Program-made: the position numbers and the translations under genes | The notes under the pieces: generated by a model | Database searches by the model: none | Told to the model about the DNA's origin: nothing | The model's input: the letters and a program-made list of their open reading frames with translations, nothing else | Shown: positions 6,366 through 60,729 of the stretch, piece by piece | Position numbering within the stretch: the first letter of the stretch is position 1 | Layout: each line of letters begins with the position of its first letter | DNA from: Maribellus sp. YY47 | GTDB lineage: Bacteria > Bacteroidota > Bacteroidia > Bacteroidales > Prolixibacteraceae | DNA length: 64,000 nt | Direction of reading: 5' to 3' | NCBI RefSeq assembly: GCF_023111095.1 | Contig: NZ_JALGYW010000012.1 | Span: 62,001 to 126,000, forward strand

Positions 6366-6915
6366 TCATTTAAGTTTAAATTGATTTGTATAATTCACGG
6401 GGTTGAATTTAGGAAATGAATAAAAACTTCATTGTTATTTTCAGATATTGGATTTTCAAATCTGGATACAGTGTTTAAAGAATCAACAAAAAAGACGAAT
6501 TAATACCTTGCCATAAAGATATATTACCGCAATTGTAGTATTTATAATTGTTCATCTTTGTAGTATTAGACAAGAGGCCTGAATGAATACAACATTTATT
6601 ATTCGCGGAAAACACCAACAAAAATGAAAACTTGGTGTACTCAAATTTCCGATTTTACTTCTTCCGTTATGCATTGAGGGAATGCTTGTATAAAAGACAC
6701 AACCGGGATAATTTTGAGTATTATTTCTTTATTCTGGATTAAATATCCAGGGACTTTCTGACAAAAAAAGAAACCAAAAGCGCCACACAAAAGAATTGGC
6801 GGCGCTTTATTGTCTAATTAACAAACTAAACTATATTGCTACTTCAAACGAATTATAAAAAAGTCTTTCCAAACAAAATAATCAGTTTTTTTAGTAATCA
6901 TATTGTTTTCTCCGG
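6366..6915. other. Intergenic region between susD and the esterase block
   Basis: This 550-bp stretch holds no supported gene. It contains the susCD terminator at 6777-6808. A small perfect inverted repeat (CTGGAT, five bases, ATCCAG) lies at 6734-6750. The promoter of the downstream esterase-GH43 unit should be here, but no clear TAnnTTTG match was found on the minus strand. Confidence 0.5.
6764..6808 (-). terminator. Rho-independent terminator of susCD
   Basis: On the minus strand the arm AAAGCGCC pairs perfectly with GGCGCTTT (6777-6784 with 6801-6808). The hairpin is followed by a T-rich run (GGTTTCTTTTTTT). It lies about 110 bp downstream of the susD stop and separates susCD from the esterase/GH43 block. 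Confidence 0.75.
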
Positions 6916-8673: not shown

Positions 8674-8683
8674 TTAATAGTTT

Positions 8684-46039: not shown

Positions 46040-46807
46040 ATGGACAGGTTAACAATTATAAAAGTCGGCGGAAAAGTCGTTGAAGAACCCGAATCGTTAA
46101 ATGCGCTGCTCGATCAGTTTCAACGGATATCAGGAAACAAATTACTGGTTCACGGAGGAGGACGAACCGCTACTGTGATTGCGGAAAAACTCGGCATCGA
46201 AACCCAAATGGTGGAAGGAAGAAGAATCACCGATGCCCAAACACTGGAAGTTGTTACCATGGTTTATGGTGGCCTGGTAAACAAACGTATTGTTGCCGGG
46301 TTGCAATCCCGTGGAATGAATGCGGTTGGCCTGACCGGCGCCGATTTCAACCTGATAAAAGCCCATAAGCGCCCCGTGAAAGACATCGACTATGGTTTTG
46401 TGGGCGATGTAGACGATGTAAACGTCTCTGAACTGCGTTTGCTGATCAACGAAAATGTAGTTCCGGTAGTAGCACCGTTAACCCACGATGCCAAGGGACA
46501 ACTGCTAAATACCAACGCCGACACCATTGCTTCGGAATTAGCCACCGAACTCTCGAATTACTTCAAAGTATACCTGTTTTTCTGTTTCGAAAAAAGAGGT
46601 GTTCTGCTAAATCCGGAAGATGACAACAGTGTAATTTACGACCTGAACCTCGAAAAGTTTAACGAATACAAAGCCGAAGGAATTATCAGTGCAGGAATGA
46701 TTCCAAAACTTGAGAATAGCTTCAGGGCAAAAATGAAAGGAGTGCAGGAAATTCTGATCACAAATCCGGAAAATATTATTACCGGCAGAGGAACGCGGAT
46801 CGTTTGA
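46040..46807 (+). CDS. argB: Acetylglutamate kinase (N-acyl-glutamate kinase)
   Basis: A 255-residue amino-acid kinase of the ArgB type, second enzyme of arginine synthesis. The phosphate-binding motif is IKVGGKVVEEP, then LLVHGGGRTATVIAEKLG, LTGADFNLIKA and a NTNADTIASELATELS segment; the C-terminus ends in a VQEILITNPENI region. In Bacteroidota this enzyme often acts on N-succinyl- rather than N-acetyl-glutamate; sequence alone does not settle it. It takes the place normally held by hisA after hisH. No other arginine gene is adjacent. It is the last gene of the his transcription unit. Confidence 0.93.
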   Translation: MDRLTIIKVGGKVVEEPESLNALLDQFQRISGNKLLVHGGGRTATVIAEKLGIETQMVEGRRITDAQTLEVVTMVYGGLVNKRIVAGLQSRGMNAVGLTGADFNLIKAHKRPVKDIDYGFVGDVDDVNVSELRLLINENVVPVVAPLTHDAKGQLLNTNADTIASELATELSNYFKVYLFFCFEKRGVLLNPEDDNSVIYDLNLEKFNEYKAEGIISAGMIPKLENSFRAKMKGVQEILITNPENIITGRGTRIV

Positions 46808-47152
46808 TATTTTTCCGCAGGAAAAGATTTTATCCGTCTCCCCAAATGTGCAAAACCACCGCGATAAATTGCACCTTTTGCTTTCTTTGAAAACAAAAGG
46901 TATAAAGGTAAAATACTGCATACATAGGAGGCGCTCCCCTGTATGTGACATAAGTCACAAAACACTATATTTCAGATAATTCACCTTCCGCTGCCACTTA
47001 TTCAGATCATTTGTTTAATACAATTTTATTCTGCAAACCATTTTTGAATATCCGTCAGAAATTAGTAAGTTAAACTCCTGAAACCAGTAATTGTTATTTA
47101 GCATATAACTAAACGGCAGGAACTATAATAACCTTATATACAACATACTATC
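46808..47152. other. Intergenic region upstream of the Fnr-like gene
   Basis: About 345 bp without a gene. It contains a hairpin ACCTTTTG/CAAAAGGT near 46877-46905, a second imperfect stem CATACA/TGTATG at 46918-46946, and the Crp-type palindrome at 46944-46959. No clear promoter element was found for the regulator. Confidence 0.4.
46944..46959. promoter_or_regulatory. Crp-type palindrome TGTGA-N6-TCACA
   Basis: TGTGA-CATAAG-TCACA matches the classical Crp-family consensus perfectly. It is about 195 bp upstream of the Crp/Fnr-type regulator start and 140 bp after argB. It could bind a second Crp-family protein or the regulator itself. The distance to the gene is large, so its role is uncertain. 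Confidence 0.5.
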
Positions 47153-47884
47153 ATGGCAAAAACTATTGAAAACTCATGTACCAATTGTACAAAGCTTGAA
47201 AATGGTTGCTGTAAAACGTGTATCGAAGACCATAAAAACAATATATTCGCTCCTCTTACCAACAAGGAAATTGAATTCCTGATCGACGATAAAAAGCAAA
47301 TTATTTACAAAACCGGAGAGACAATTGTGAAGCAAAACACATCATCTACCTATGTGGTTTGTGTGCGCGAGGGGTTAGCAAAACTATACGTTGAAAGTGA
47401 TAACGGAAAGAATGTTATTGTGCGTCTTGCCAAAAAAGGAGACTTCATTACCGGGGGAGGTTTATTTAATGGCAGTGTACAGCATTTTAGCATTACGGCA
47501 CTAACTTCGGTTCGGTGCTGTCTGATCGACTCTGCCAAACTTACCACCCTGTTTTCCGAAAATAATTCATTCGCAGTAGGTTTACTTCGCTACCATACCA
47601 AACAAAATAATTACCTGTTAAATAAACTGGTTAATCACACCCAAAAATACATGCCGGGCAGGGTAGCTGACACCCTGCTTTACCTAAAAAATGAAATCTT
47701 TGCTGAGAAAACCTACCAGGTTCCTTTAACCCGACAAGAACTGGCCGAAATGTCGAATATGACCAAAGAAAGCTTTGTTAGGATTTTACACCAGTTTAAA
47801 GACTCGAATTTAATCGCGGTTGATGGCAATACCATCGAAATTCTAAACGAAAGTTCACTGGTCGCTATCAGCAAGAACGGATAA
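47153..47884 (+). CDS. Crp/Fnr-family regulator with N-terminal Cys cluster
   Basis: A 243-residue transcription regulator with a cyclic-nucleotide-binding-like sensor domain (about 30-150) and a C-terminal winged HTH, where LTRQELAEMSNMTKESFVRILHQFKDSNLI is the recognition region. The N-terminus has Cys at 9, 12, 19, 20 and 23, and a further pair at 122-123 in RCCLID. Escherichia coli FNR uses three N-terminal cysteines and Cys122 to hold an oxygen-sensitive [4Fe-4S] cluster, so this protein could sense oxygen the same way. A perfect FNR box lies immediately after its stop codon and ahead of the cytochrome cluster. It is the obvious candidate regulator of that cluster. The exact cluster ligands are inferred. 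Confidence 0.88.
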   Translation: MAKTIENSCTNCTKLENGCCKTCIEDHKNNIFAPLTNKEIEFLIDDKKQIIYKTGETIVKQNTSSTYVVCVREGLAKLYVESDNGKNVIVRLAKKGDFITGGGLFNGSVQHFSITALTSVRCCLIDSAKLTTLFSENNSFAVGLLRYHTKQNNYLLNKLVNHTQKYMPGRVADTLLYLKNEIFAEKTYQVPLTRQELAEMSNMTKESFVRILHQFKDSNLIAVDGNTIEILNESSLVAISKNG

Positions 47885-47898
47885 TTGATATATATCAA
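47885..47898 (+). promoter_or_regulatory. Perfect FNR box ahead of the multiheme cluster
   Basis: TTGAT-ATAT-ATCAA is an exact match to the FNR consensus TTGAT-N4-ATCAA. It begins one base after the stop codon of the Fnr-like gene and lies 112-148 bp upstream of the first cytochrome start. A plausible AT-rich -7 region (TATTCTTTT) begins near 47927, which would put the box near -46, a class-II activator position. Confidence 0.75.
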
Positions 47899-47996: not shown

Positions 47997-49091
47997 ATGA
48001 GTAAATTTATCAATTACCTAATCTATTACGTTATGAAATACAGATCACTTTTAAAATTATTTTTCCTGGGTTTTTGTTGTACAGTATTAGCAACATCTTG
48101 TACAAAAGAAGGGCCTATGGGACCAGCCGGTGCTGACGGAGCTGATGGCTCTGATGGTACTAATGGAGTTGACGGTAACGTTACTTGTTTGGTGTGCCAC
48201 TCGGGAACCAACATGGATCAAAAACAGGCAGAATTCGCTATGTCAGCGCACAGTGTAGGTGCCATTGCTGTTGACTATGCCGGTGGGCAGGCACGATGTG
48301 CACCTTGCCATTCGCACGAACAATTTGTACAAACGATGACATTGGGAAGTGTTGCCGGAGACATTACAAATCCAAGTGCATGGGAATGTAGCACTTGCCA
48401 CGGAATCCACAAGTCGTTTGAAGGAAAAGATTATGCACTGCGCACAACCGCTCCGGTTGTTTCAAAAGCTGTTAGCAGCATTACAATGGATCTTGGGGGT
48501 CACAGCAACCTTTGCGCCACTTGCCACCAAACTCGTACTGCAGAACCGAATACTGCCAGCCCGGGTGAAACTTTCCGCATTTCAAATACACACTATGGTC
48601 CTCACCACGGACCTCAAGGCAACGTAGTTGCAGGTGTTGGATTTGCTGAAATCGCAGGAGATGTTCCATATCCAGCAGTTGGAAGCAATAAACACCTGGA
48701 ACAAGCATCGTGCACCGGATGTCATATGGCTGAATTTGGAAACAAACAAGGCGGTCACTCATTCATTCCCAGCGTTGCTGCTTGTAACGAATGTCACGAT
48801 GCCGACCTGGACGATTACAACTACGGTGGTGTTCGTACCGAAGTAGAAGGACTGCTTGAAGAATTGAGAGATGAATTAATTGCTCTTAATGTTGTATTCT
48901 GGGATGATGCAGCCGGAGCCTACGAACCAGTAGTAGGAACTCATCCAATGGTACTTGCACAGTCTTATTTTAACTGGATTGGTTTGGAAGAAGATCGCAG
49001 TCTTGGTGCACACAATCCTAAGTATGTAAAAGCTCTGTTGCTAAATACCATCCAAGCCGTTCAAGAATACGCAGCCGCAAATTCGAACTAA
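47997..49091 (+). CDS. Six-heme c-type cytochrome lipoprotein with collagen-like linker
   Basis: A 364-residue multiheme cytochrome with six CXXCH sites: CLVCH, CAPCH, CSTCH, CATCH, CTGCH and CNECH. The signal is of lipoprotein type (VLATSC). Translation may start at 47997 or, better for the signal peptide, at the ATG at 48033 (MKYRSLLKLF). Directly after the lipid-attached Cys comes a run of Gly-X-Y triplets (GPMGPAGADGADGSDG and on, seven triplets), a collagen-like spacer that would hold the heme domain away from the membrane. The C-terminal ~100 residues have no heme sites but a VEGLLEELRDELIALN helix. Probable position is the outer membrane, facing outward as in terminal cytochromes of electron conduits. 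A surface-exposed reductase or electron-transfer protein is the inference. Confidence 0.85.
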   Translation: MSKFINYLIYYVMKYRSLLKLFFLGFCCTVLATSCTKEGPMGPAGADGADGSDGTNGVDGNVTCLVCHSGTNMDQKQAEFAMSAHSVGAIAVDYAGGQARCAPCHSHEQFVQTMTLGSVAGDITNPSAWECSTCHGIHKSFEGKDYALRTTAPVVSKAVSSITMDLGGHSNLCATCHQTRTAEPNTASPGETFRISNTHYGPHHGPQGNVVAGVGFAEIAGDVPYPAVGSNKHLEQASCTGCHMAEFGNKQGGHSFIPSVAACNECHDADLDDYNYGGVRTEVEGLLEELRDELIALNVVFWDDAAGAYEPVVGTHPMVLAQSYFNWIGLEEDRSLGAHNPKYVKALLLNTIQAVQEYAAANSN

Positions 49092-49106
49092 TAATAATAC
49101 GAGCAG

Positions 49107-49138
49107 AAAAAGACTTCTGTACAGAAGTCTTTTTTTTC
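49107..49138 (+). terminator. Rho-independent terminator after the six-heme cytochrome
   Basis: AAAAAGACTTCTG and CAGAAGTCTTTTT form a perfect 13-bp stem around TA and run into a T tract. It lies 15 bp after the stop at 49091 and 17 bp before the next gene's start, so it may attenuate expression of the downstream genes relative to the first. Confidence 0.8.
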
Positions 49139-49154
49139 ACGAAACATAATAATT

Positions 49155-49529
49155 ATGAAAACACTAAAAATTATAATATCAACAATAGCATTGGCATTGG
49201 TTTTTGGTGGTTGCGCATATAATTTCATCGTTCCTGAGCCAACAGTAAATCCGGATGACCCGAATGCTGCTGAGGTTTCTTTTTCGGCTGAAATTGTACC
49301 GATTTTCGCATCCAAATGTACGGGTTGTCACACCACTGGGAAACAACTTCCGGATCTGACATCCGACAATGCTTTTTCTTCACTCAATAGTTCCCGGTAT
49401 GTTAATAAAAGTACGCCAGCATCGAGCTTGATTTATACCAAAGCAACGGGTAATCATTCTGCAACTTTCACAAGTGCCGAGGCGGCAAAAGTATTGCTGT
49501 GGATCAACCAGGGAGCAAAGAATAATTAA
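49155..49529 (+). CDS. Monoheme cytochrome c lipoprotein
   Basis: A 124-residue small lipoprotein (LVFGGC) with one heme site, CTGCH, in IVPIFASKCTGCHTTGKQLPDL. The fold looks like the single-heme class often named planctomycete-type cytochrome c (PF07635-like), with an ending TSAEAAKVLLWINQGAKNN in which a distal helix and possibly a Met/His ligand would complete the site. It may shuttle electrons near the membrane. It sits between the six-heme lipoprotein (terminator in between) and a beta-barrel gene 15 bp downstream. Confidence 0.82.
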   Translation: MKTLKIIISTIALALVFGGCAYNFIVPEPTVNPDDPNAAEVSFSAEIVPIFASKCTGCHTTGKQLPDLTSDNAFSSLNSSRYVNKSTPASSLIYTKATGNHSATFTSAEAAKVLLWINQGAKNN

Positions 49530-49544
49530 AAATTTAATCTGAGA

Positions 49545-50456
49545 ATGATGAAAAAATACATATTGACTCTCCTTATTTCAGGATTAATAATTCCCAGCCT
49601 TTTTGCCCAGGAAGAGAAAGAGCCGGATACACCGGTCAGCAATCCGTTTGAAAGCGGAATACTGATCGATGCACAAACTACGGTCATCCCTGATGCAAAG
49701 ACCCTGGAATTTATTATCCAGCATAAATTTGGTTCGATAGAAAACGGATCGTCTGATCTGTGGGGGATTTACGGTTCTTCCAACATTAGAGTAGGATTGA
49801 ACTACGTTCCCGTTAAAAATTTTCAGATCGGCGCCGGTATTACCAAACGGAAAATGATGACCGACCTGAATGCGAAATGGACCATCTTAAAGCAAACCGA
49901 AAGAAGCACAGTTCCTGTTTCAGTAGCACTTTACGGATCAATCGGAATTGACGGCCGTTCATTTGACCAACTAGGCGGTCTTGGATACACTGTTGATTCA
50001 AAAGCAAACGATACTCCATTGCAATCTTTTGGATTTACTGACCGTTTGTCGTATTACTCACAGTTAATCATTGGTCGTAAAGTTACCAACGCACTTTCAG
50101 TGCAAGTGGGTACCAGCTTCACGCATTACAACACGGTTGACTGGACTGATGATCACGATGTAATTGGATTACATGCCAACGCTCGTCTGAAATTCTCTCC
50201 ACAGGGATCAATCATTGTTACCTACGATCATCCGCTGAAAGTTAAAGACATATCAGAACAGTATACCTGGGATCATATGGCAGAACCGAACCTTGCCTTT
50301 GGTGTTGAGTTTTTTACATTTACTCACGCTTTCCAAATGTTTGTAGGATCGGCTGACGGTATTCTTCCGATGGAACTGATGATGAACAATGGTAATCCAA
50401 TAAAAGGTAAAACTTTTGCCATTGGCTTTACAATCACCAGATTGTGGATGTTCTAA
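49545..50456 (+). CDS. DUF5777-like outer-membrane beta-barrel protein
   Basis: A 303-residue exported protein with signal peptide (cleavage near LFAQ) and the alternating polar/hydrophobic strands of an outer-membrane beta-barrel. Segments LEFIIQHKFGSIENG, NIRVGLNYVPVKNFQIGAGI and QGSIIVTYDHPL match, from memory, proteins annotated with DUF5777. It ends with an aromatic strand (TITRLWMF), as expected for Bam-dependent barrel insertion. Its place between cytochrome genes suggests it is the porin part of an electron conduit, similar in concept to MtrB/PioB, but it is much smaller (those have about 26-28 strands). An estimate of 12-14 strands is only rough. Confidence 0.7.
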   Translation: MMKKYILTLLISGLIIPSLFAQEEKEPDTPVSNPFESGILIDAQTTVIPDAKTLEFIIQHKFGSIENGSSDLWGIYGSSNIRVGLNYVPVKNFQIGAGITKRKMMTDLNAKWTILKQTERSTVPVSVALYGSIGIDGRSFDQLGGLGYTVDSKANDTPLQSFGFTDRLSYYSQLIIGRKVTNALSVQVGTSFTHYNTVDWTDDHDVIGLHANARLKFSPQGSIIVTYDHPLKVKDISEQYTWDHMAEPNLAFGVEFFTFTHAFQMFVGSADGILPMELMMNNGNPIKGKTFAIGFTITRLWMF

Positions 50457-50488
50457 CATAGCACTAACCATGCAATTGGTTGTTAAAG

Positions 50489-50524
50489 ATGGTAATATCG
50501 CACAAAACGGTATTACCATTTTTT
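50489..50524 (+). terminator. Rho-independent terminator after the beta-barrel gene
   Basis: ATGGTAATA (50489-50497) and TATTACCAT (50511-50519) form a perfect 9-bp stem, followed by six or more T. It ends the transcript of the first three genes of the cytochrome region. Confidence 0.8.
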
Positions 50525-50588
50525 AATAAAAACGAACCGTTTTTTTAGCACAAAAAGATAAACACAACGATTTAAAATATACAGACCC

Positions 50589-51530
50589 ATGAAAGTCTTC
50601 CTGTCAATTCTCTTGTTTCTCAGCTGTTTCACGTTTGCTACGAGAACGATGGCTCAGTATTATGACGATCCGAAGAATCACGATTGTTTGAAATGCCATT
50701 CCCAGCAAACCTATTCATTTCATAACGACATGATGGACACTGAGCAGAAACGTCTCATGAATCCATATTTAATTATCGACACCATTCAGTTACGCAACGG
50801 CGTTCACCATAATTTCGATTGTACAGATTGCCATTCGTATGAATATACCACTTATCCGCACACGGCAACCTTAAAACTCGAACCGCTTTCAACATGTCTC
50901 GACTGTCATGGCGGCGATGAATCCTATGCAAAATATGAGTTCGAAAAAGTGCAGGAAGAATTTCAAAAGAGTATTCACTATAAGGTTTACGGAGATAATT
51001 TCACTTGCGCAAAATGTCATAACCAACATTATTATGCTCCTGCAGCACGTAACAGCAGCAGTGTTGTTGAGATTGTTGAATACAGTAACAAGATGTGCCT
51101 GTCGTGCCATAACGATATGAAAAGATTCAGCCTGGTTTCGGGTGAAACAAAACCAACGGTCGTTGCTATTCACGACTGGCTGCCTAACCAGGAATTACAT
51201 TTCCAACACGTACGCTGTATCGAATGTCATACCGTAGTAGTAGACAGCTTGATGGTATCTCACAATATTCTTTCAAAAGAAAATGCACTTCGTCGTTGTG
51301 CCGAATGCCACTCGGCGAACTCCATGTTGAAAGCGTCCTTGTACAAATATCAAAACTTGCAGGAAAGAGCTGAAGACGGATCCGTCCTCGGAATGCTTTC
51401 GAACGAAAATTATGTAATCGGGTCACACCAGATTCCGGCATTAAAAATATTAAGCTTAATCATCTTTTTTGCAGCATTAGCAGGAATTATCATCCACCTG
51501 ACGTTTAGAATTATCATCAAAAAGAAATAA
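50589..51530 (+). CDS. Seven-heme cytochrome c with C-terminal membrane anchor
   Basis: A 313-residue periplasmic cytochrome with a signal peptide (cleavage near TMAQ) and seven CXXCH sites: CLKCH, CTDCH, CLDCH, CAKCH, CLSCH, CIECH and CAECH. A C-terminal membrane helix (about 286-308, ALKILSLIIFFAALAGIIIHL) followed by KKK anchors it in the inner membrane with the heme domain outside. The partner cytochrome b gene begins 2 bp after its stop, which strongly implies a two-subunit quinol-oxidising or quinone-reducing complex. The heme pattern fits the cytochrome c3/c7 or octaheme-like groups but no catalytic family was recognised. Confidence 0.85.
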   Translation: MKVFLSILLFLSCFTFATRTMAQYYDDPKNHDCLKCHSQQTYSFHNDMMDTEQKRLMNPYLIIDTIQLRNGVHHNFDCTDCHSYEYTTYPHTATLKLEPLSTCLDCHGGDESYAKYEFEKVQEEFQKSIHYKVYGDNFTCAKCHNQHYYAPAARNSSSVVEIVEYSNKMCLSCHNDMKRFSLVSGETKPTVVAIHDWLPNQELHFQHVRCIECHTVVVDSLMVSHNILSKENALRRCAECHSANSMLKASLYKYQNLQERAEDGSVLGMLSNENYVIGSHQIPALKILSLIIFFAALAGIIIHLTFRIIIKKK

Positions 51531-51532
51531 CA

Positions 51533-52159
51533 ATGAGCTCAGAAAACAAAATATATTTCTACCCACTTTGGTTACGTATTTGGCATGGAATAAATGCGCT
51601 GGGAATTATCCTCCTCATCATTACCGGAATCAGTATGAATTCGGGTTTCGAAAAGTCATTTATCAGTTTTAAACTCATTATTACGGTGCACAATTATGCC
51701 GGAGTGATTGTTACGTTGAACTACCTGGTGTACTTATTTGGGAACCTCTTTACCAGCAACAAAAAGTTCTATATCGTTAAGCCCAAAAACTTCCTGAAGC
51801 GCCCTATGAAGCAAGCTTATTACTACGCCTGGGGAATGTTTCACGGAATGCAGGCCCCCTACCCGCTTTCTGAAAAAAGAAAATTCAACCCCTTGCAGAA
51901 ATACACGTACATCGCAGTAATGTACCTTGTTGTTCCGATGGTTATCGTTTCGGGGATTGGATTGATGTTTCCGGAGCTGATATTCAATAAAATATACAAC
52001 ATAAGTGGTGTACTTATTACAGCAGTAACCCACTCTGCCATGGGCTTCTTTATTTCGATCTTCCTGCTTATTCACCTATACATTGCATCGATTGGAAAAT
52101 CGCCGGTGGATAACTTCAGAAGCATCATTAACGGATGGCATCACATTACGAAAAAATAG
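51533..52159 (+). CDS. Membrane cytochrome b (formate dehydrogenase gamma/b561-like)
   Basis: A 208-residue integral membrane protein with four predicted helices and His residues in the expected places: RIWHGINALG in helix 1, TVHNYAGVIV in helix 2, AVTHSAMG in the third block, and LLIHLYIAS in the fourth. This is the di-heme cytochrome b pattern of formate dehydrogenase gamma and thiosulfate reductase b subunits (Ni/Fe hydrogenase b-type family). It would move electrons between the quinone pool and the seven-heme subunit encoded 2 bp upstream. There is no associated molybdoenzyme gene nearby. Confidence 0.82.
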   Translation: MSSENKIYFYPLWLRIWHGINALGIILLIITGISMNSGFEKSFISFKLIITVHNYAGVIVTLNYLVYLFGNLFTSNKKFYIVKPKNFLKRPMKQAYYYAWGMFHGMQAPYPLSEKRKFNPLQKYTYIAVMYLVVPMVIVSGIGLMFPELIFNKIYNISGVLITAVTHSAMGFFISIFLLIHLYIASIGKSPVDNFRSIINGWHHITKK

Positions 52160-52295
52160 TTGATACAAAATATTAGCTAAAAGTCAGGATTACAATTATA
52201 TAAATACTTCAGAAGCAGAGACGATTAAGACATAGCGATTACATACTGTTTTCCGCTGAGAACCAGAACTTAGGTTAAACCAGAAACTAATTATT

Positions 52296-55145
52296 ATGCG
52301 GAGGAGAAGTATTTGTTTTGATTTATCGGAGAAGTTGGCTTCAATAACATTGACCAGCTCTCCGCATCGTTTTCTAAAACTGAAGAGGAAATTAAGTGCC
52401 CTATCAACGGTACTACTCTTTTCGGCGGCTGTTTTTGCGCAGTCGAATGAAGATTGTGCCATGTGTCACGACGATCCTTCCTTAACTGCTATTCGCAAAG
52501 GAAGAGAAGTTTCAAGATATATTCCGGGAGACATACTGGCCAACTCGGTCCACAGTTATCTCGAATGTATCTCGTGTCACACCGATGCAGCTGTCGAAGA
52601 TTTTCCTCACCCCGACACCCTGCAGCCGGTGAATTGCGGCGAATGTCACGACGATGCCATGTCCAATTTTCTGGATGGCATACACGGGCAGGCTTTCCTC
52701 CGAAACGACAGAAATGCCCCCAATTGTTCGGAATGCCACGGCACCCATCAGATTATTCCCGCCAGCAATCCCAAGTCGCCAACCTATAAAATGAATATTC
52801 CCGTGCTTTGCGGTAAATGTCACCGCGAAGGAGCCCCGGTTGCCAGGGCTTACAACATCTCAGAACGCAATATCCTCGAAAACTACAGTCAGGGTATTCA
52901 CGGGCGGGGACTATTCAATGCCGGATTGATTGTTACAGCCACCTGTAACGACTGCCATGGAAATCATTTGATACTTCCTCACACCAATAGCCGGTCAAGT
53001 ATTTCGCAGAAGAATATTGCGTCAACCTGTATGAAATGCCATGCCCGGATCGAGGATGTTCATACAAAAATCATTAACCGGGAATTGTGGGAAAAAAAGC
53101 CGGGAGCAATTCCTGCCTGTACCGATTGCCACCCTCCGCATAAAGTGGAAATGCAGAACCTGGTAGAGAACATTTCGGACCGGACCTGCCTGAAATGCCA
53201 TGAACGCCCCGACATTCAGATGACGGTTAATAACCAGCAGGTATCATTACATGTCGATGTAAATGAACTTACCGTTTCGGCCCACAATAATATCACTTGT
53301 GTAAAATGCCACTCCGACGTAACCGCTACCTTGTCGCGCCCCTGCGAAACAGCTGGCAAGGTCGACTGCTCCAACTGTCATGCTGAAGAAGCCGAAATTT
53401 ACTTCGACAGCGGCCATGGAACCGCTTATGTTTCGAAACACGAAAATGCGCCCTATTGTACCACTTGCCACGGAACGCATTTGGTAAAAAAGAACGACGA
53501 TGAAACTTCGCCGGTATTTCGTTCGTCTATTCCAAAACTTTGCGGCGACTGTCATAAAAACAACGGCAAAGCGCTGGACGGAACCGATTTAAAAGAAAGG
53601 GATGCTTTTGCCGATTATTCAACGAGTGTACACGGTCGCAGCCTTGAAGAAAAAGGGCTTTTATCGGTCGCCGTTTGCACCGATTGCCACACTACGCATT
53701 TTATGTTGAAAGAAAACGACGAGCGTTCGTCGGTCAATCCGGCCAACCTGGCCAAAACCTGTGGAAAATGCCACAAAGGGATCTACGACGAATATATTGC
53801 CAGTGAACACGGCCATCAGAACAATACCGGCGAGTTAAAGTTCCCGACCTGCGAAACCTGCCACACGGCGCATCATATTTCGGAAGTTCACCAGGACAAA
53901 TTTATGTCTGAAATCACCGACCAGTGTGGACAATGTCACAAAGATTTAGCTGAAACTTACCTGGAAACTTATCACGGAAAGGTACATCAATTGGGATACT
54001 TGCAAGCTGCGCGTTGTTCCGACTGTCATGGCGCCCACAACATCTACCCGATGGACAATCCGAAATCCACTATAAATCCGAGAAACATTGTTGCCACCTG
54101 CCAGAAATGCCATACGGATGCCAACATGAAGTTTACCGGTTATCTCACGCACGCCACGCATTACGACCGAAGTAAGTTCCCATGGTTATATTACACCTTC
54201 TGGGCCATGACTGCCTTGTTGCTGAGTGTTTTTGCCTTCTTTGGCTTACATACCTTACTGTGGCTGCCTCGCTCGCTGGGAACACTTATCAAACGCGAAA
54301 GTCATCCCAAACCGGTGGGGAAGCAATGGTATATCCGGCGGTTTTCAAAAAAGAACAGGATCACCCATATTTTTGTGATTTGCAGCTTTATTCTTCTGGC
54401 CCTTACCGGAATGATACTGAAGTTTGCCTATATGCCCTGGGCTAAATTTTTGTCAGGGTTGATTGGCGGCGCGCATGTTGCCGGATCGATCCACCGCTTT
54501 GCAGCCATCATTACGTTCGGCTATTTTATTTTCCACGTAGTGTCGTTACTTAAAATCAAATATCAAAAGGGAATAAAAGTAAGTAAGTTTATATTCAGCA
54601 GTAATTCACTGATGTTTAACCGAAAAGACATCAAGGACTTTTGGGCATCAATCAAATGGTTCACCGGGGTTGGTCCCCGTCCAAACTACGGACGCTGGAC
54701 TTATTGGGAAAAGTTCGACTATTTTGCTGTTTTCTGGGGAGTAATGGTAATCGGATCGACGGGGTTAATGCTTTGGTTCCCCGAAATCTTTACGCGGATA
54801 CTTCCGGGTTGGCTGATCAACGTTGCTCAGATCATTCACAGCGATGAAGCTTTGCTAGCCGTTGGCTTTATTTTCTCGATTCATTTCTTTAATACCCATC
54901 TTCGTCCGGAGTCATTCCCGATGGACACTGTAATCTTTACCGGTTATGTTCCGGCAGAAGAGTACAAGGCTGACAGACCGCATGAATACGAACAATTGGA
55001 GAAATCGGGTAAGCTGAAAGATGTGCTGGTGGAAAAAGAATTTTCTCCGCAAAAGATGCTTTGGATCAAAATTTTTGGCTTTGTTGCGCTTTTTACCGGT
55101 GTGGTTTTGATTGGATTGATCATTTATTCCCTGATTTTTCATTAA
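52296..55145 (+). CDS. 19-heme cytochrome c fused to a cytochrome b-like membrane domain
   Basis: A 949-residue protein. Residues up to about 610 hold nineteen CXXCH sites, from CAMCH near the N-terminus to CQKCH before the first membrane helix. Many occur in repeated CxxCHGTH / CxKCH modules about 30-50 residues long, which suggests internal duplication. The C-terminal third has about six membrane helices: near 635-660, 690-710, 735-755, 805-825, 850-870 and 925-949. These include His-bearing segments NRITHIFVIC, IHRFAAIITFGYFIFHV and IIHSDEALLAVGFIFSIHFFNTH, a cytochrome b561-like di-heme pattern. The start at 52296 gives an unusually long n-region before the hydrophobic LSALSTVLLFSAAVFAQ, so a later non-ATG start is possible. 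Electron transfer from quinol through b hemes to a long periplasmic heme chain is the inferred role. Confidence 0.85.
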   Translation: MRRRSICFDLSEKLASITLTSSPHRFLKLKRKLSALSTVLLFSAAVFAQSNEDCAMCHDDPSLTAIRKGREVSRYIPGDILANSVHSYLECISCHTDAAVEDFPHPDTLQPVNCGECHDDAMSNFLDGIHGQAFLRNDRNAPNCSECHGTHQIIPASNPKSPTYKMNIPVLCGKCHREGAPVARAYNISERNILENYSQGIHGRGLFNAGLIVTATCNDCHGNHLILPHTNSRSSISQKNIASTCMKCHARIEDVHTKIINRELWEKKPGAIPACTDCHPPHKVEMQNLVENISDRTCLKCHERPDIQMTVNNQQVSLHVDVNELTVSAHNNITCVKCHSDVTATLSRPCETAGKVDCSNCHAEEAEIYFDSGHGTAYVSKHENAPYCTTCHGTHLVKKNDDETSPVFRSSIPKLCGDCHKNNGKALDGTDLKERDAFADYSTSVHGRSLEEKGLLSVAVCTDCHTTHFMLKENDERSSVNPANLAKTCGKCHKGIYDEYIASEHGHQNNTGELKFPTCETCHTAHHISEVHQDKFMSEITDQCGQCHKDLAETYLETYHGKVHQLGYLQAARCSDCHGAHNIYPMDNPKSTINPRNIVATCQKCHTDANMKFTGYLTHATHYDRSKFPWLYYTFWAMTALLLSVFAFFGLHTLLWLPRSLGTLIKRESHPKPVGKQWYIRRFSKKNRITHIFVICSFILLALTGMILKFAYMPWAKFLSGLIGGAHVAGSIHRFAAIITFGYFIFHVVSLLKIKYQKGIKVSKFIFSSNSLMFNRKDIKDFWASIKWFTGVGPRPNYGRWTYWEKFDYFAVFWGVMVIGSTGLMLWFPEIFTRILPGWLINVAQIIHSDEALLAVGFIFSIHFFNTHLRPESFPMDTVIFTGYVPAEEYKADRPHEYEQLEKSGKLKDVLVEKEFSPQKMLWIKIFGFVALFTGVVLIGLIIYSLIFH

Positions 55146-55396
55146 AAAACGACTTTTGAAAAATGTGATTTGTGACTTATAAAAAATAAGAAACGAAATT
55201 GATTAAAATACAGTATTAACAACATTAGCATGAGTTATTGACGACAAAACAAAGGCAACATTTACTAACATAATTTCACAATATTTTCCGGTATATAGAA
55301 GTCTTTTAAATTATTGCGGAGTATTGAAAGTTTAGTTGAATTTCGCCAAATTGCGTCGACAAAATACATTGCTAAGCTCATTAAAACTAAAGGATT

Positions 55397-56899
55397 ATGA
55401 AACTACCATCATCGATCAAGAACTGGATTTCAATAGCGGGGGCTTTGCTGGCTGTTTTCAACCTGGCTTCCATCCTTTCCTTAATGATCCTGAATTATTT
55501 CTTCGGATTTGGGGGCTCTTACATTGGGCTGTTTATATACATTGTCCTCCCGGGATTTATGATCACCGGGCTAATTATGATCCCAATCGGGATGCGTATT
55601 TACAAACGAAGAGCAAGAAAAGCCGAGAAAGAAGGGAAACAGGTAAACTGGCCCATTATCGACTTTAACAACATTGCCACCCGAAATGCGTCCATCATAT
55701 TTATTGTGGGGACTGTTTTCCTGCTTATTATTTCTTCCATTGGAAGTTACGAAGCATTTCACTTAACCGAGTCGGTTGAATTTTGCGGAAAACTGTGTCA
55801 CCAGGTAATGGAACCGGAATACACCACGTATCACGGCTCGTCGCACGAAAGAGTAGCCTGTGTAGAATGCCACGTTGGTTCGGGAGCCAGCTGGTACGTG
55901 AAAAGTAAGCTTTCGGGCTTGTACCAGGTATATTCGGTGATGGCCAAAAAATATCCGCAGCCAATTCCAACACCTATTGCCAACTTACGTCCTGCACAGG
56001 AAACCTGCGAACAATGTCACTGGCCCGAAAAATTTTATGACCGGAAACTGCGAATGAAACATTCGTTTCTTACCGACGAAGAGAATACCGAAGAAATCAT
56101 TCACCTTCAGGTAAAAACAAGTACCCGTGAAACAGCCAATGGACTTGAAAAAGGAATTCACCAGCATATCAGTCCCGACGTAAAAATTGAATACAAAGCA
56201 GTGGACGAGAAAAGGCAAGTCATTCCGTGGGTGAAATATACCAATACAAAAACCGGAGAAGTAAAGATTTACACCGACAGCGATAACTACTTGTCAGAAG
56301 CCCAGCTGGATTCACTGGAAACCAGGACAATGGATTGTCTGGATTGCCACAACCGTCCGTCGCACAATTACAATGCTCCTCAGAATTTCATCGACAAATC
56401 GATGGCCGAAGGGAAAATATCCACAGAACTTCCGGCCATTAAAATGGCTGCGATGCTGGCTTTGTACCAGGACTATCCAACCAAAGACAGCGCTTTCTTC
56501 GCCATAAAAACTCAGGTTAACGAGTGGTTCGATTCGAGCTACCCGGAAATAGCAGAATCTAAAAAAGAAGAAATTGCGAAGGCGATTCAGGAAATTCAGA
56601 ATGGCTATGCCAACAACATATTTCCGTATATGAAAGCCAGTTGGAAAGAATACCCCAACAACATTGGCCATATGGAATCAGACGGATGCTACCGTTGTCA
56701 CAACAATCGTCATACGGCCGACAGCGGCGAAGTTATTTCAAAGGATTGTAACCTGTGTCATAATATTGTTGCTCAAGGCACTGCCGATACGTTGACTTAT
56801 GCCAATTCGCAAAATCCGTTGACATTTGAACATCCCGTTGATATTGGTGATGTTTGGCAGGAAGAACTTTGCTCCTCTTGTCATTCTGCACTATATTAG
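55397..56899 (+). CDS. NapC/NirT-like multiheme cytochrome, membrane anchored
   Basis: A 500-residue membrane-anchored cytochrome. Three predicted helices come first (about 9-35, 43-66 and 94-115), more than the single anchor of classical NapC/NrfH. Heme sites follow: an unusual CX3CH (CGKLCH) at the start of the periplasmic part, then CVECH, CEQCH, CLDCH, CYRCH, CNLCH and CSSCH. The order FCGKLCHQVMEPEY and YHGSSHERVACVECHVGSG is typical of NapC/NirT quinol dehydrogenases, whose first heme is often atypically bound. The middle part (about 230-330) is heme-free. It would take electrons from menaquinol and deliver them to periplasmic partners. It is followed 90 bp later by a tetraheme cytochrome. 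Confidence 0.85.
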   Translation: MKLPSSIKNWISIAGALLAVFNLASILSLMILNYFFGFGGSYIGLFIYIVLPGFMITGLIMIPIGMRIYKRRARKAEKEGKQVNWPIIDFNNIATRNASIIFIVGTVFLLIISSIGSYEAFHLTESVEFCGKLCHQVMEPEYTTYHGSSHERVACVECHVGSGASWYVKSKLSGLYQVYSVMAKKYPQPIPTPIANLRPAQETCEQCHWPEKFYDRKLRMKHSFLTDEENTEEIIHLQVKTSTRETANGLEKGIHQHISPDVKIEYKAVDEKRQVIPWVKYTNTKTGEVKIYTDSDNYLSEAQLDSLETRTMDCLDCHNRPSHNYNAPQNFIDKSMAEGKISTELPAIKMAAMLALYQDYPTKDSAFFAIKTQVNEWFDSSYPEIAESKKEEIAKAIQEIQNGYANNIFPYMKASWKEYPNNIGHMESDGCYRCHNNRHTADSGEVISKDCNLCHNIVAQGTADTLTYANSQNPLTFEHPVDIGDVWQEELCSSCHSALY

Positions 56900-56989
56900 T
56901 AATGAATATAAATAAGCTAAAACAGCCATTCATAAAACCAAATGGCATGTGATTTGAAATATTGAGTTAATCATTTAAATAGTAATGTT

Positions 56990-57493
56990 ATGGTAAAAAA
57001 ATTATTGTTATTGATGGGACTGGCCCTTTTTATCAGTTCTGTTTCATTTGCTCAGACGTACAAATACATCGGCGCCGCAAAGTGCAAGATGTGTCACAAC
57101 AAACCTGAGAAAGGCGAACAATTCAACCAATGGGCAGCAAGTAAGCACGCCAACGCCATGAAATCGCTGAAAGGTGACGAAGCTAATGATCCAACCTGTT
57201 TGAAATGTCATTCAACCGCAGGAAGCGTAGACAAATCGTTATTAGCAGGTCTTACCGTTCAGGATGGTGTTTCTTGCGAATCGTGCCATGGCCCAGGTAG
57301 CATGTATAAAACGGCTGCCATAATGAAAAACAAAGAGATGGCGCTTTCCAAAGGTATGACCGAGCCTAACGAAGCTACCTGCAAGGCTTGTCATCTTGGT
57401 GAAAAACCAGCAGGTCACGTGGCAGCTAAAAAACCTTGGAATTACGCTGAATTTGTAAAAGTTATTGCTCACGACGATCCAACAACCAAATAA
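56990..57493 (+). CDS. Tetraheme cytochrome c (c554-like)
   Basis: A 167-residue periplasmic protein with a signal peptide (cleavage near SFAQ) and four heme sites: CKMCH, CLKCH, CESCH and CKACH. The spacing, with KYIGAAKCKMCH at the start, QFNQWAASKHANAM after the first heme and SCESCHGPGS in the middle, matches the cytochrome c554 family (PF13435). Members carry electrons between membrane and periplasmic or outer-membrane cytochromes. Its gene is followed by a strong terminator, so it ends the cytochrome transcript before ccsBA. Confidence 0.87.
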   Translation: MVKKLLLLMGLALFISSVSFAQTYKYIGAAKCKMCHNKPEKGEQFNQWAASKHANAMKSLKGDEANDPTCLKCHSTAGSVDKSLLAGLTVQDGVSCESCHGPGSMYKTAAIMKNKEMALSKGMTEPNEATCKACHLGEKPAGHVAAKKPWNYAEFVKVIAHDDPTTK

Positions 57494-57517
57494 AGGTTTG
57501 TTTTAACTTTATTCTTG

Positions 57518-57554
57518 AAAATTCCTTTGTTTTCCGGAACAAAGGAATTTTTTT
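57518..57554 (+). terminator. Rho-independent terminator after the tetraheme cytochrome
   Basis: AAAATTCCTTTGTT (57518-57531) and AACAAAGGAATTTT (57538-57551) form a perfect 14-bp stem around TTCCGG, then a T run. It is 25 bp after the tetraheme cytochrome stop. Confidence 0.85.
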
Positions 57555-57648
57555 AATACCTGCTCACCAAACCAATTGTAGAATGAAATGGCTTGAATAA
57601 AATGCTTTTAACTATATTCAGCTCCTCTAATAAATCCAAAATATTATC

Positions 57649-60600
57649 ATGAAAAAGTTTCTTTCATTTATCTTTTCAATGTTTTTTACCGGAATACTTC
57701 TGGTCATTTTTGCTATCGGCATAGCTTATGCTACGTTTATTGAAAACGACTACGGAACAATAACCGCAAAAATACTCATCTACAATTCCACCTGGTTTGA
57801 AATCCTGCTGACAATTCTCAGTATAAACCTGATTGGCAGCGTTTTTAAATACAAATTGGTGAGCCGAAAAAAATGGACTGTGCTACTTTTTCATCTTTCA
57901 TTTATTGTTATTCTGATCGGGGCAGCCATTACCCGTTACTATGGTTTTGAAGGTTCGATGCACATCCGCGAAGGAGAATCATCCGACTTTATTGTTTCAG
58001 AAGCCAACTATGTAACCATTAAGGCAACATCGGGCAATGAAACAGTTGAGACCGAGAAAGAAATTAAATTTTCACCCTATACCGCTAATGCATTTTCGGA
58101 AAACATCGAAATCGGAGGACAAACCATTCATGTTAAAAATGAGATTTTTATGCCTTCTGCCGCTGAGAATCTGGTGGTAGATCCCAACGGTCAGCCCATT
58201 GTTTCCCTGATCGCAATTTATAACGGATCCCGCACTGATTTTAGCTTGCACCAAGGCGATGTAAAATACTTTGGCCCGACTGCCATCGGTTTTGAAGCAA
58301 ACTCAAAAGTCGACCTTCAACTTAAAATGGTAGACGGAAACATGCTTTTGACTTCATCCGATTCGTTGCTGGCCTCCGAAATGAGTGCAACATCACCTGA
58401 GCTTATTCCTGCCGACTCAGCGATAGCCATCAATAACCAAAAGGTATACACGTTCAAAGACCTGAATTTTGCAATGAAACAGTTTTTACAAAAAGGAAAA
58501 ACGCAATTGGTTTATCAGCAGGCACAACGTGGAATGCCCACAAAAGACGCGATGAAAGTAACCATCACTTCGGGACAAGAAAGCAAAGAACTTGTGGTAT
58601 ACGGACAAAACGGAACGGTGGGAGACTTTTATACAACACAGATCAACGGAACTGAAGTATCCATTTCATACGGATCAAAGATCATTCAACTCCCCTTCTC
58701 TATTTATTTGAAAGATTTTCAATTGGAACGTTATCCCGGATCCAACAGTCCGTCATCGTACGCCAGTGAAGTCGTACTGAAAGACGGAAGCTTTGAAATG
58801 CCCTACCGCATTTTCATGAACAATATTCTGAAACACAAAGGATTCCGCTTTTTCCAGTCGTCGTACGATACCGATGAAGAAGGTACCATCCTTTCGGTAA
58901 ACAGCGATAAAGCCGGAACATCGGTAACTTATTTCGGATACCTGATTATGGCCATTGGCATGCTGCTTACCCTTTTCAACAAAAACAGCCGCTTTAAAAG
59001 CCTGTTAAAAGCCTCGGCAAAACTCAGAGCCGAGCGCAAAAAATTGATGGTTACATTGATTGTCGGAATGCTACTTTCTGTCTCAGCGCATTCTCAAACG
59101 GCTACTACCAACATGAACAAAGACCATGTGAAAGCCTTTGACGAATTGTTGGTGCAAAGCCGCAAAGGACGTGTAGAACCGGTTTCGACCATTGCCTCTG
59201 AAATTTTAAGGAAAGTAGCCAAGAAAACCAGTTGGGAAGGATTGACGCCAACTGAAGTTTTTCTGGATATGCAGGCCAATCCCGAAAAATGGAAAAACAT
59301 TCCAATCATTAAAGTAGCCAATCCTGAGCTTCGGAAAATGCTGGGTGAACAAGGTAAATATGCCAGCTTTAATTCCATCGTGGCTCCCCGCGAAATGGGC
59401 GGCTACAAACTGAACACGATGGTTCAGGAAGCTTATGCGAAAAAGAGCAATCAACGAAACAAACTCGACAAGGAAGTAATGAACGTTGATGAACGCGTAA
59501 ACATTCTGATGCGTGTTTTTAACCAGGATTTTCTGAATGTTTTCCCGATTCCCGGCGACGACAACCACAAATGGGTATCGGTAAACGAAACTAGCGAAAT
59601 GACCGCCGAACAAGCTGCATTTGCCAAACAGACCATCGATAGCTACTTCGGTTCGGTTGTTAGTAACGATTGGGCAACGGCCAGCCAGCTGCTCAGCAAT
59701 CTGAAAACCTACCAGGAAAAGTACGGGGCCAAAATTTCTCCGTCGTCAACCAAGGTTAAACTGGAAGTGCTGTACAACAAGCTCAACATATTTGGAAAGC
59801 TGTCAAAGATATTCATGTTTACGGGTCTTATCCTTCTGGTTTTACAGCTGATTACCCTGTTTAATCCGAAGATTCAGATCAAATGGCTGAAAAACCTGGC
59901 CTTGATTTTCATTTTCATATTATTTGTGGCAGAATCGGCCGGTCTTGGCATTCGCTGGTACATTTCGGAACATGCCCCCTGGAGCAACGGTTACGAATCG
60001 ATGGTGTTTATTAGTTGGGCAACTTGTTTGGGCGGACTTATTTTTGCCAAACGATCAGAGATCACGCTTTCGCTGACTTCGGTTCTGGCTGGTTTAACGC
60101 TGATGGTAGCCGGAATGAGCTGGATGAGTCCGGAGATTACGAACCTGGTTCCCGTGTTGCAATCATACTGGCTGATCGTTCATGTGGCCATTATCACTGC
60201 CAGCTACGGATTTCTGGGCATCAGCGCACTACTCGGGTTCCTTAACCTGATCCTGATGATCTTTAAGAATAAAAACAATGCACAACGCATCAATCTTACC
60301 ATTCGTGAACTGGTTAATATCATTCAGATTGCCCTCATCATTGGTGTTCTGATGCTGACGGTAGGTTCGTTTTTGGGAGGTGTTTGGGCCAACGAAAGCT
60401 GGGGCCGTTACTGGGGTTGGGATCCCAAAGAAACCTGGGCGCTGGTAACCGTAATCGTTTACACGTTTATAACACACATGCACCGTATTCCGGGTATGAG
60501 AGGTAATTTTGCGATGAGTACTGCCGCTGTGCTTGGCATCAGCTCAGTTTTGATGACTTATTTTGGTGTGAACTACTATTTGTCAGGACTGCATTCGTAT

Positions 60601-60729
60601 GCACAAGGCGAACCCGCCCCTATTCCATCGGGAGTCTACATTGCAATTGTAGTGGTTGTCATCGTGGTAGTTGCGGCCTATATGGCGGAAAAAGCAAAGC
60701 CGACACCTGCTGAAGAGCTGGAAGAATAA
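57649..60729 (+). CDS. ccsBA: Cytochrome c biogenesis protein CcsBA (ResB-CcsA fusion)
   Basis: A 1026-residue fused system-II heme ligation protein. The ResB/CcsB-like part covers about 1-470, starting with SFIFSMFFTGILLVIFAIGIAYATFIEN and a large periplasmic domain. The middle (about 480-715) is a soluble segment. The CcsA part (about 720-1010) has the heme-binding WWD motif in WGRYWGWDPKETWALVT, flanked by His-bearing segments (SEHAPWSNGYESMVFISW before, FITHMHRIPGMRG after). It brings heme to the outside and ligates it to CXXCH cysteines. Its position next to genes with 44 heme sites is what one expects of a dedicated maturation machine. The fused arrangement is usual in Bacteroidota and epsilon-proteobacteria. 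Confidence 0.93.
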   Translation: MKKFLSFIFSMFFTGILLVIFAIGIAYATFIENDYGTITAKILIYNSTWFEILLTILSINLIGSVFKYKLVSRKKWTVLLFHLSFIVILIGAAITRYYGFEGSMHIREGESSDFIVSEANYVTIKATSGNETVETEKEIKFSPYTANAFSENIEIGGQTIHVKNEIFMPSAAENLVVDPNGQPIVSLIAIYNGSRTDFSLHQGDVKYFGPTAIGFEANSKVDLQLKMVDGNMLLTSSDSLLASEMSATSPELIPADSAIAINNQKVYTFKDLNFAMKQFLQKGKTQLVYQQAQRGMPTKDAMKVTITSGQESKELVVYGQNGTVGDFYTTQINGTEVSISYGSKIIQLPFSIYLKDFQLERYPGSNSPSSYASEVVLKDGSFEMPYRIFMNNILKHKGFRFFQSSYDTDEEGTILSVNSDKAGTSVTYFGYLIMAIGMLLTLFNKNSRFKSLLKASAKLRAERKKLMVTLIVGMLLSVSAHSQTATTNMNKDHVKAFDELLVQSRKGRVEPVSTIASEILRKVAKKTSWEGLTPTEVFLDMQANPEKWKNIPIIKVANPELRKMLGEQGKYASFNSIVAPREMGGYKLNTMVQEAYAKKSNQRNKLDKEVMNVDERVNILMRVFNQDFLNVFPIPGDDNHKWVSVNETSEMTAEQAAFAKQTIDSYFGSVVSNDWATASQLLSNLKTYQEKYGAKISPSSTKVKLEVLYNKLNIFGKLSKIFMFTGLILLVLQLITLFNPKIQIKWLKNLALIFIFILFVAESAGLGIRWYISEHAPWSNGYESMVFISWATCLGGLIFAKRSEITLSLTSVLAGLTLMVAGMSWMSPEITNLVPVLQSYWLIVHVAIITASYGFLGISALLGFLNLILMIFKNKNNAQRINLTIRELVNIIQIALIIGVLMLTVGSFLGGVWANESWGRYWGWDPKETWALVTVIVYTFITHMHRIPGMRGNFAMSTAAVLGISSVLMTYFGVNYYLSGLHSYAQGEPAPIPSGVYIAIVVVVIVVVAAYMAEKAKPTPAEELEE

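Follow-up and report, generated by a model that had tools for sequence, protein, structure and literature searches.

A compact multiheme cytochrome locus of Maribellus sp. YY47 as a candidate for quinol-to-surface electron export through a non-canonical outer-membrane module

A 64,000-nucleotide stretch of the Maribellus sp. YY47 genome (Bacteroidota; contig NZ_JALGYW010000012.1, positions 62,001 to 126,000 of the forward strand; hereafter the window) contains at 47997-60729 a plus-strand locus of nine genes, labelled B to J, preceded by a Crp/Fnr gene (A) and an FNR-type box. With moderate confidence, we read this locus as an FNR-controlled system for quinol-to-surface electron export, in which the CbcL- and ImcH-type inputs are optional and the outer-membrane module is non-canonical. 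Its features, with the E-values of their best family models where these apply, are as follows.

A, 47153..47884 (+): Crp/Fnr regulator of 243 amino acids (aa) with N-terminal cysteines (PF00027, 5.3e-15; PF13545, 1.1e-14)
FNR-type box TTGATATATATCAA, 47885..47898 (+): between A and B, directly 3' of A
B, 47997..49091 (+): hexaheme lipoprotein of the NrfA/OcwA superfamily, with a collagen-like linker and a proposed position on the cell surface
C, 49155..49529 (+): monoheme lipoprotein with one CXXCH, its lipobox judged by eye in an alignment
D, 49545..50456 (+): DUF5777 outer-membrane beta-barrel (PF19089, 1.1e-67)
E, 50589..51530 (+): heptaheme cytochrome with a C-terminal membrane helix
F, 51533..52159 (+): b561-type membrane cytochrome b (PF01292, 2.5e-23)
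G, 52296..55145 (+): 19-heme cytochrome fused to a six-helix cytochrome b, 949 aa, optional (PF01292, 3.5e-7)
H, 55397..56899 (+): ImcH-type seven-heme quinol dehydrogenase, 500 aa, optional (PF03264, 3.2e-10)
I, 56990..57493 (+): c554-type tetraheme periplasmic cytochrome with four CXXCH (PF13435, 3.4e-12)
J, 57649..60729 (+): CcsBA (ResB+ResC) cytochrome c synthase, a second copy in the genome (PF01578, 4.4e-39; PF05140, 6.1e-22)

Six of the nine genes B to J encode heme motifs, with 6 CXXCH in B, 1 in C, 7 in E, 19 in G, 6 in H and 4 in I, 43 in all, and a single CX3CH at residue 130 of H. These figures agree exactly with those of an earlier reading of the window from its letters alone (the sequence-only reading), which had counted eight consecutive genes instead of nine and had left out the adjoining Crp/Fnr gene and the FNR-type box upstream of B. 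Shuffled versions of the same proteins (300 each) are nearly motif-free, with a mean of at most 0.12 CXXCH, so the wealth of motifs is not due to chance. Among the frames of more than 60 codons in the whole window, two more contain CXXCH, one motif each; the first overlaps J in a different frame and the second lies at 46636-46971 on the minus strand. Pfam and NCBIfam models assign A to the Crp/Fnr regulators, B and E to the multiheme c-type cytochromes, C weakly to the monoheme cytochromes, D to the DUF5777 barrels, F to cytochrome b561, G to multiheme c plus cytochrome b, H to NapC/NirT, I to cytochrome c554 and J to CcsBA. The small beta-barrel, the pair of cytochrome b-type components (F and the C-terminal portion of G), the NapC-like quinol dehydrogenase (H) and the CcsBA heme ligase (J) of the sequence-only reading are all borne out by these assignments, and its electron path with components for each layer holds up as a set of candidate components.

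We infer that the heptaheme/b561 pair E-F would take electrons from menaquinol at the inner membrane, with G (CbcL type) and H (ImcH type), where present, acting as extra quinol oxidases. Electrons would then pass through the periplasmic tetraheme cytochrome I to an outer-membrane assembly of C, D and B, and B, positioned on the cell surface, would reduce an external acceptor, which may be Fe(III), Mn(IV), humics/flavins or a partner. J would act as a dedicated heme ligase and A as the regulator.

The quinol-side parts are members of known families, and the correspondence of H and G to the published descriptions of ImcH and CbcL supports the export reading. PMC6295460 describes ImcH of the Geobacter group as a protein of 495-519 aa with three N-terminal helices, an adjacent CX3CH and six CX2CH. 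H shows this published signature, with hydrophobic maxima at residues 13, 43 and 98 ahead of its CX3CH at 130 and six CXXCH; it also matches an NrfH model (7.9e-14) under the cut-off of that model. Among 35 relatives of H of at least 450 aa, 33 have the CX3CH and 31 have six CXXCH, and the two without CX3CH (L039 and L059) each have 17 CXXCH. For CbcL/MtrH/MtoC homologues, the same source gives 416-1034 aa and 3-23 CX2CH, followed in most cases by six helices with conserved His, and its Bacteroidetes count is five CbcL-type homologues and one ImcH homologue. G has this published build, with six hydrophobic maxima and nine His after residue 610 that are invariant in 30 of 30 sequences. In one relative (L273; G034:C1:46000-64000), G is divided between two open frames of 658 and 320 aa, one for the 19-heme part and the other for the cytochrome b part, through either a gene split or a frameshift.

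E has seven CXXCH in the window and in all 16 relatives, with a hydrophobic maximum at residue 284, and His 18, 53, 167 and 181 of F are kept in 16 of 16; F matches the PhsC-type model NF011582 (4.2e-44), under its cut-off. From its heptaheme-c plus b561 architecture, the pair E-F resembles Geobacter CbcBA. CbcBA figures as a third Geobacter system in PMC12307469, PMC9129911 and PMC10553843. In locus L193 (13348-15558) a b561 domain (PF01292) is fused before an ImcH-like NapC/NirT part (PF03264) in a protein of 737 aa, and open reading frames (ORFs) of similar length and heme count are present in L194 and L201. The L193 fusion suggests that F and H work together, and it argues for the export reading.

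The candidate surface cytochrome B begins with a lipobox and a collagen-like linker, both kept in relatives. A profile of 12 B proteins matched OcwA (6i5b, 1.6e-12) and NrfA (1oah, 1.6e-10) in the PDB, which places B in the NrfA/OcwA superfamily by sequence profile, and the OcwA alignment takes in the final pair of hemes and continues to the end of the helical C-terminal domain. As PMC6703420 describes it, 6I5B is OcwA, a nonaheme terminal reductase of the cell surface with an NrfA-like helical bundle, and this identity of the best solved relative of B again supports export. A search with the B profile of 394 genomes from the phylum found relatives in 67, including the window genome; the sample analysed comprised 67 regions from the 66 other genomes, two of them from G651 and one from each of the rest, further copies being possible. 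Short B-like proteins number 20 in these regions, spread over 17 loci, and long ones number 53, spread over 49; the ORF in region L257 was classed as I, not B. Nine hemes are present in 44 of the 53 long relatives and a type IX secretion system (T9SS) sorting tail (PF18962) in 52; the long relatives match OcwA at 1.7e-33, and their profile aligns with that of B at a probability of 100% over 275 columns. Because the long relatives are OcwA-like and T9SS-tailed and B aligns with them, the family is probably secreted across the outer membrane and probably constitutes a surface cytochrome family in the phylum. The OcwA-like, mostly nonaheme proteins with T9SS tails (L208-L256, L258 and L259; e.g., L208:8523-10535) form a widespread probable surface set in their own right.

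To examine the conservation of the locus, the G protein was used to scan genome contigs, matching at least 592 stretches, at least 586 of which encode a relative, and the best 80 loci were kept. The sequence records of these best 80 loci come from many phyla, with no Desulfobacterota among the record names. Within this set, B, C and D occur together in 12 loci (hereafter the named loci) and E and F together in 16; C is always found with D, and D is found without C in three loci, in two of which (L028 and L032) the contig starts at or near D, which is not so in the third (L038). In the 12 named loci, some of whose contig pieces end early, E, F and G are present in all 12, I in 11, H and A in 10 each, and J in 8. 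The order A-B-C-D-E-F-G-H-I-J is complete in five of the best 80 loci, from Draconibacterium aestuarii (L025), Draconibacterium sediminis (L053), Mangrovibacterium lignilyticum (L064) and two metagenome-assembled genomes (L027 and L030), and is rearranged in L035 and L057. Synteny in relatives, a check that had been named beforehand, was accordingly found in other Bacteroidota.

Within a sample of 37 genomes from the genus of the window genome, G is present in 22 (one a remnant), B in 29, D in 29 and H in 27. The presence of B and D is concordant in 35 of the 37 genomes, the discordant ones being G035 (79% complete), with D and no B, and G027, with a fragment of B and no D. The pair E-F accompanies B-C-D in all 12 named loci and all 11 loci from the genus, which further supports the export reading. 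Seven genus genomes that have B and H (L260-L266) keep the cluster with only G gone; in one of them (L265) the position of I is taken by a longer 9-heme ORF with a weak match to I, and an extra small ORF follows D. In L267 G is reduced to a 181-aa remnant, and in L268, from a single genome, G and H are both gone and one TAA is flagged inside the B match; G028 (75% complete) also has neither G nor H, its locus itself being outside the sample. Since these natural variants without G, or without G and H, keep the remainder, A-B-C-D-E-F-I-J can be taken as a core, with 18 c-type hemes by the window counts. Beside this core, the large G and the ImcH-like H have the appearance of quinol oxidases added on to it.

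The syntenic site of G027 (L275:10421-11374) offers a different kind of variant, with A followed by a piece of B (residues 78-246) that merges into a piece of C (residues 17-94); D is missing, whereas E, F and G are intact. Between G and an I-J-H group, this genome contains, among others, two-component regulators, an 11-heme and a 4-heme cytochrome and a 9-heme lipoprotein, and the same interval includes a 649-aa secreted protein and a 14-heme cytochrome. This arrangement looks like the loss of one outer-membrane module and the arrival of another, and the presence of the 14-heme and 9-heme cytochromes and the 649-aa secreted protein in a same-genus genome that has no D, and B and C only as fragments, counts in favour of the export reading.

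C lies immediately 5' of D wherever a locus shows both, and in the export reading the C-D pair would be a non-canonical outer-membrane crossing. The loci of short B relatives point the same way, since 16 of the 17 have an outer-membrane module at most three genes away (L197 has none). Three kinds of module can be distinguished: a fused monoheme-barrel protein of about 400-430 aa, with one N-terminal CXXCH and a barrel-like remainder, in seven loci; a barrel-like protein of about 425 aa with a cytochrome of 12-14 hemes, in another seven; and C-D in two, the window being a third. The kinds are never mixed within a locus, and none of the 49 long-B loci (0/49) bears one. In the class of the window, short B was found in three sampled genomes including that of the window, all with C-D, and the two other kinds occur only in genomes that share just the phylum with it. 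In both of these alternatives, the proteins are called barrels because of their length, their signal peptide and their aromatic C-terminal ends. The fused proteins (L193:9537-10733, L195, L199, L201 and L206) have a Cyc2-like architecture and no Cyc2 motif, show Y-S-[IL]-L-Q and then CXXCH, and adjoin B-like cytochromes and a Rieske-type protein.

DUF5777 was found in 217 of 247 sampled genomes of the class, and the literature searched yielded no paper naming the family. Among 30 loci taken from its best-scoring matches, a C-like protein is present in 28 and a YceI-like protein in 24, and flanks of about 1.5 kb contain no frame with more than two CXXCH. The 19 D proteins of multiheme clusters (four of them without B on the contig piece) separate from 30 family members with a support of 1.0 and no mixing, and therefore represent a specialised branch. 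His 60, 194 and 261 of D are invariant, first in 47 of 47 and then in 49 of 49 DUF5777 sequences (window 49545-50456 and loci L025-L064, L105-L134, L196 and L200). A heme or metal site formed by these residues inside the barrel was considered and rejected, as strand alternation assessed by eye suggests that all three face the membrane. In the step at D itself, C could dock at the barrel as the Cyc2 heme domain is thought to do (PMC8406198); alternatively, D could let in a soluble acceptor or shuttle. A broader proposal, which we advance tentatively as a possibility, is that C and D represent a new and minimal kind of electron crossing at the outer membrane, encoded by two genes and lacking a wide porin filled with hemes. 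The multiheme-cluster form would serve anaerobic export to B, and the YceI-linked form, common in the class, would handle outer-membrane electron traffic in many species.

Control of the locus is suggested by A and the box downstream of it. The FNR consensus is TTGAT-N4-ATCAA, a motif that the box follows. The pattern TTGAYNNNNRTCAA has a single match in the 64 kb window, with 0.52 expected and at least one match in 40 of 100 shuffles, and this match by itself is not significant. In 8 of the 11 other named loci (absent in L026, L029 and L057) and in 11 of 11 loci from the genus, the motif is found again in the 250 bp upstream of B, against a background of 0.0063 per 250 bp measured in the same named DNA. 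Among 12 aligned members, A keeps Cys20 in 12, Cys23 and Cys123 in 11 each, Cys12 in 8 and Cys9 in 7, a pattern compatible with an oxygen-sensing Fe-S cluster. The conserved combination of box and adjacent Crp/Fnr gene supports control by anoxia, so that the locus is probably under oxygen control, which fits the export reading.

Several observations weigh against this reading, in which the passage of electrons via D is the weakest step. The AlphaFold2 model of D, built with 17 sequences and of moderate confidence (mean predicted local distance difference test score 72.5), has 12 strands, and its nearest solved folds are FapF, NanC, KdgM and OmpG, not MtrB; by sequence, D has no relative in the PDB at E 1. 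MtrB-type barrels have 26 strands and Cyc2 has 16 (PMC8406198), so no heme chain is expected inside D, and a survey of porin-cytochrome systems used a criterion of at least 14 strands (PMC7399161). A search of the genome with the MtrB/PioB model (PF11854) gave no match, and since none of 14 control genomes scored above the cut-off either, it had no positive control. D as modelled is not a wide barrel holding a multiheme cytochrome, and strand count and fold led us to reject a classical porin-cytochrome complex for D; in that form, the candidate conduit of the sequence-only reading is not supported. The frequency of C-D pairs in the class without multiheme neighbours argues for some wider role of the pair. 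In L196 and L200, B-C-D occurs without E-F, G, H or I beside it; L196 has an EB_dh protein between B and C and continues after D with a 4Fe-4S protein and an NrfD protein, neighbours from which B-C-D can be seen to pair with another quinol module. The profiles of the first two module kinds were built partly from these same loci, two fused proteins and one of the ~425-aa proteins gave no Pfam or NCBIfam match when tested, and kinship of D with the fused barrel was rejected, as the profile comparison matched the signal peptide alone. That the 649-aa protein of G027 is a barrel could not be proved: its beta-alternation gives 25 peaks against a shuffle mean of 20.5 and maximum of 25, in a weak test (D gives 15 against 9.8, maximum 16), and a PDB search with it returned no useful match. 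For B, the structure model is poor at residues 31-154 and Foldseek returned only weak NrfA/ONR matches (best E 0.027, all above 0.02), so superfamily membership rests on the sequence profile, and the lipid anchor, which we propose to lie at the surface, would also allow a position on the periplasmic face. Literature searches naming Draconibacterium, with partial coverage, found no report of extracellular electron transfer.

The main rival, which we regard as rather unlikely, is a respiratory reductase for a small soluble acceptor, with B anchored to the outer membrane and facing the periplasm, D as a narrow solute porin, C aiding electron delivery and E-F, G and H feeding electrons from quinol. 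The small porins NanC, KdgM and OmpG among the folds nearest to D suit this arrangement, FNR-type control suits soluble anaerobic acceptors equally, and the superfamily of B includes nitrite, hydroxylamine and sulfite enzymes, OcwA itself reducing nitrite slowly and acting on hydroxylamine according to PMC6703420. However, B has six CXXCH and no CXXCK, the motif that the same paper gives for the catalytic heme of most NrfA. The T9SS tails of the long B homologues and the quinol-side families, which are those of extracellular electron transfer, also argue against this rival, and the alignment of B with NrfA 6v0a shows a catalytic region that is not conserved. The genome, moreover, has its own NrfA elsewhere (L160; PF02335, 1.9e-180), beside a 4-heme NrfH-like gene, and another CcsBA copy on contig C20, so the locus is not the nitrite system of this genome. 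Six non-motif His of B (85, 138, 203, 233, 254 and 339), of which five are invariant across 12 close relatives and the sixth almost so, could give every heme bis-His ligation; this argument is weak, because OcwA also has enough His and yet has open hemes (PMC6703420).

An unlikely explanation that overlaps with the others is that C-D is an envelope accessory, such as an assembly or lipid-related barrel, and that electrons stop in the periplasm or take another route. It would account for the many pairs of C-like protein and D with YceI in the class, whose short flanks have no multiheme genes, and for a 12-strand barrel too narrow to serve as a heme wire. It sits less well with the separate clade of multiheme-cluster D proteins, with the agreement of B and D across the genus, and with the finding that short-B homologues of other classes hold other monoheme/barrel or barrel/multiheme modules in that place.

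It appears improbable that the chain runs inward, taking up electrons from Fe(II), from metallic iron or from a partner cell and using E-F and G to reduce quinone. CbcL/MtrH/MtoC homologues occur in Fe(III) reducers and Fe(II) oxidisers alike (PMC6295460), CbcBA has been proposed to run in reverse in syntrophic sulfate reducers (PMC10553843), and the parts list of C and D is partly like that of Cyc2, an iron oxidase. Against uptake, ImcH homologues have so far been implicated solely in quinol oxidation (PMC6295460), and the FNR-type box points to anoxic respiration, though compatible with uptake. Nrf-type nitrite reduction was rejected as the main explanation, given the absence of CXXCK from B and the real NrfA elsewhere in the genome.

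Two further cytochrome regions were noted in passing. A second large multiheme cluster of the same genome, in L157 (G000:C16:51000-70000; 6657-12216), encodes 20-heme and 13-heme cytochromes, a ferredoxin/FAD (flavin adenine dinucleotide) oxidoreductase and a 559-aa protein with no Pfam match. In L158 (6959-8488; G000:C43), a NapC/NirT domain is fused to a sulfatase-modifying-factor (FGE) domain, with an A-like gene a few genes off.

The locus is a compact, conserved and probably oxygen-regulated candidate for the way in which Bacteroidota could pass electrons through the outer membrane without Mtr-type parts. The literature searched, with partial coverage, contained neither this gene combination nor the outer-membrane module, and PMC11475568 gave zero matches for Bacteroidota terms; within that coverage, it is the outer-membrane part that was not found described, and the quinol side consists of known families. 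A deletion series within one genus with cultured members makes the parts testable one by one: it runs from the full set through loci that have lost G alone and a single genome that has lost both G and H to one where B-C-D is decayed and other multiheme genes lie close by. The analysis also yields an initial hypothesis for DUF5777 and draws attention to T9SS-tailed, OcwA-like nonaheme cytochromes as a widespread, likely surface set in the phylum. Were the C-D crossing true, the YceI-linked form would imply electron traffic in many species not thought to be electroactive.

Compared with known systems, the locus recalls NrfHA operons with CcsBA in its clustering of a NapC/NrfH-type subunit, an NrfA-superfamily cytochrome and CcsBA, and differs from them in B, which has no CXXCK, and in the separate location of NrfA. 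It shares with MtrCAB/OmbB-type systems a barrel gene beside cytochrome genes, and elsewhere a barrel-like protein of ~425 aa and a 12-14-heme cytochrome lie by B homologues, but the locus itself has neither a wide barrel nor a cytochrome to fill one. PMC8406198 describes Cyc2 as a monoheme cytochrome fused to a 16-strand porin, with the motif AXPXFAR[QK][TY]. C-D is like Cyc2 in combining one heme with one outer-membrane barrel in a minimal crossing, and B homologues in other classes adjoin a fused monoheme-barrel; unlike Cyc2, the pair is encoded by two genes, the predicted strands of D number 12 instead of 16, and profile comparison shows no similarity between D and that fused barrel, in which the Cyc2 motif is itself absent, so that the pair falls outside Cyc2 as described. 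With OcwA of Thermincola potens (6I5B), B shares the last two heme sites, a helical C-terminal domain and a DxSxGxHN region, whereas it has six hemes instead of nine, its host is Gram-negative, and it is a lipoprotein whose linker is collagen-like; the nonaheme T9SS relatives match OcwA better (1.7e-33) than B does (1.6e-12). There are parallels with ImcH, CbcL and CbcBA of Geobacter sulfurreducens: H has the ImcH signature, G has the CbcL build, and E-F, like CbcBA, pairs a multiheme c-type cytochrome with a cytochrome b. As differences, some relatives keep the remainder of the locus and have neither or only one of G and H, and G has 19 c-hemes against 9 in CbcL (PMC9129911). Here, in contrast to Geobacter, counterparts of all three systems lie in one cluster together with an outer-membrane part.

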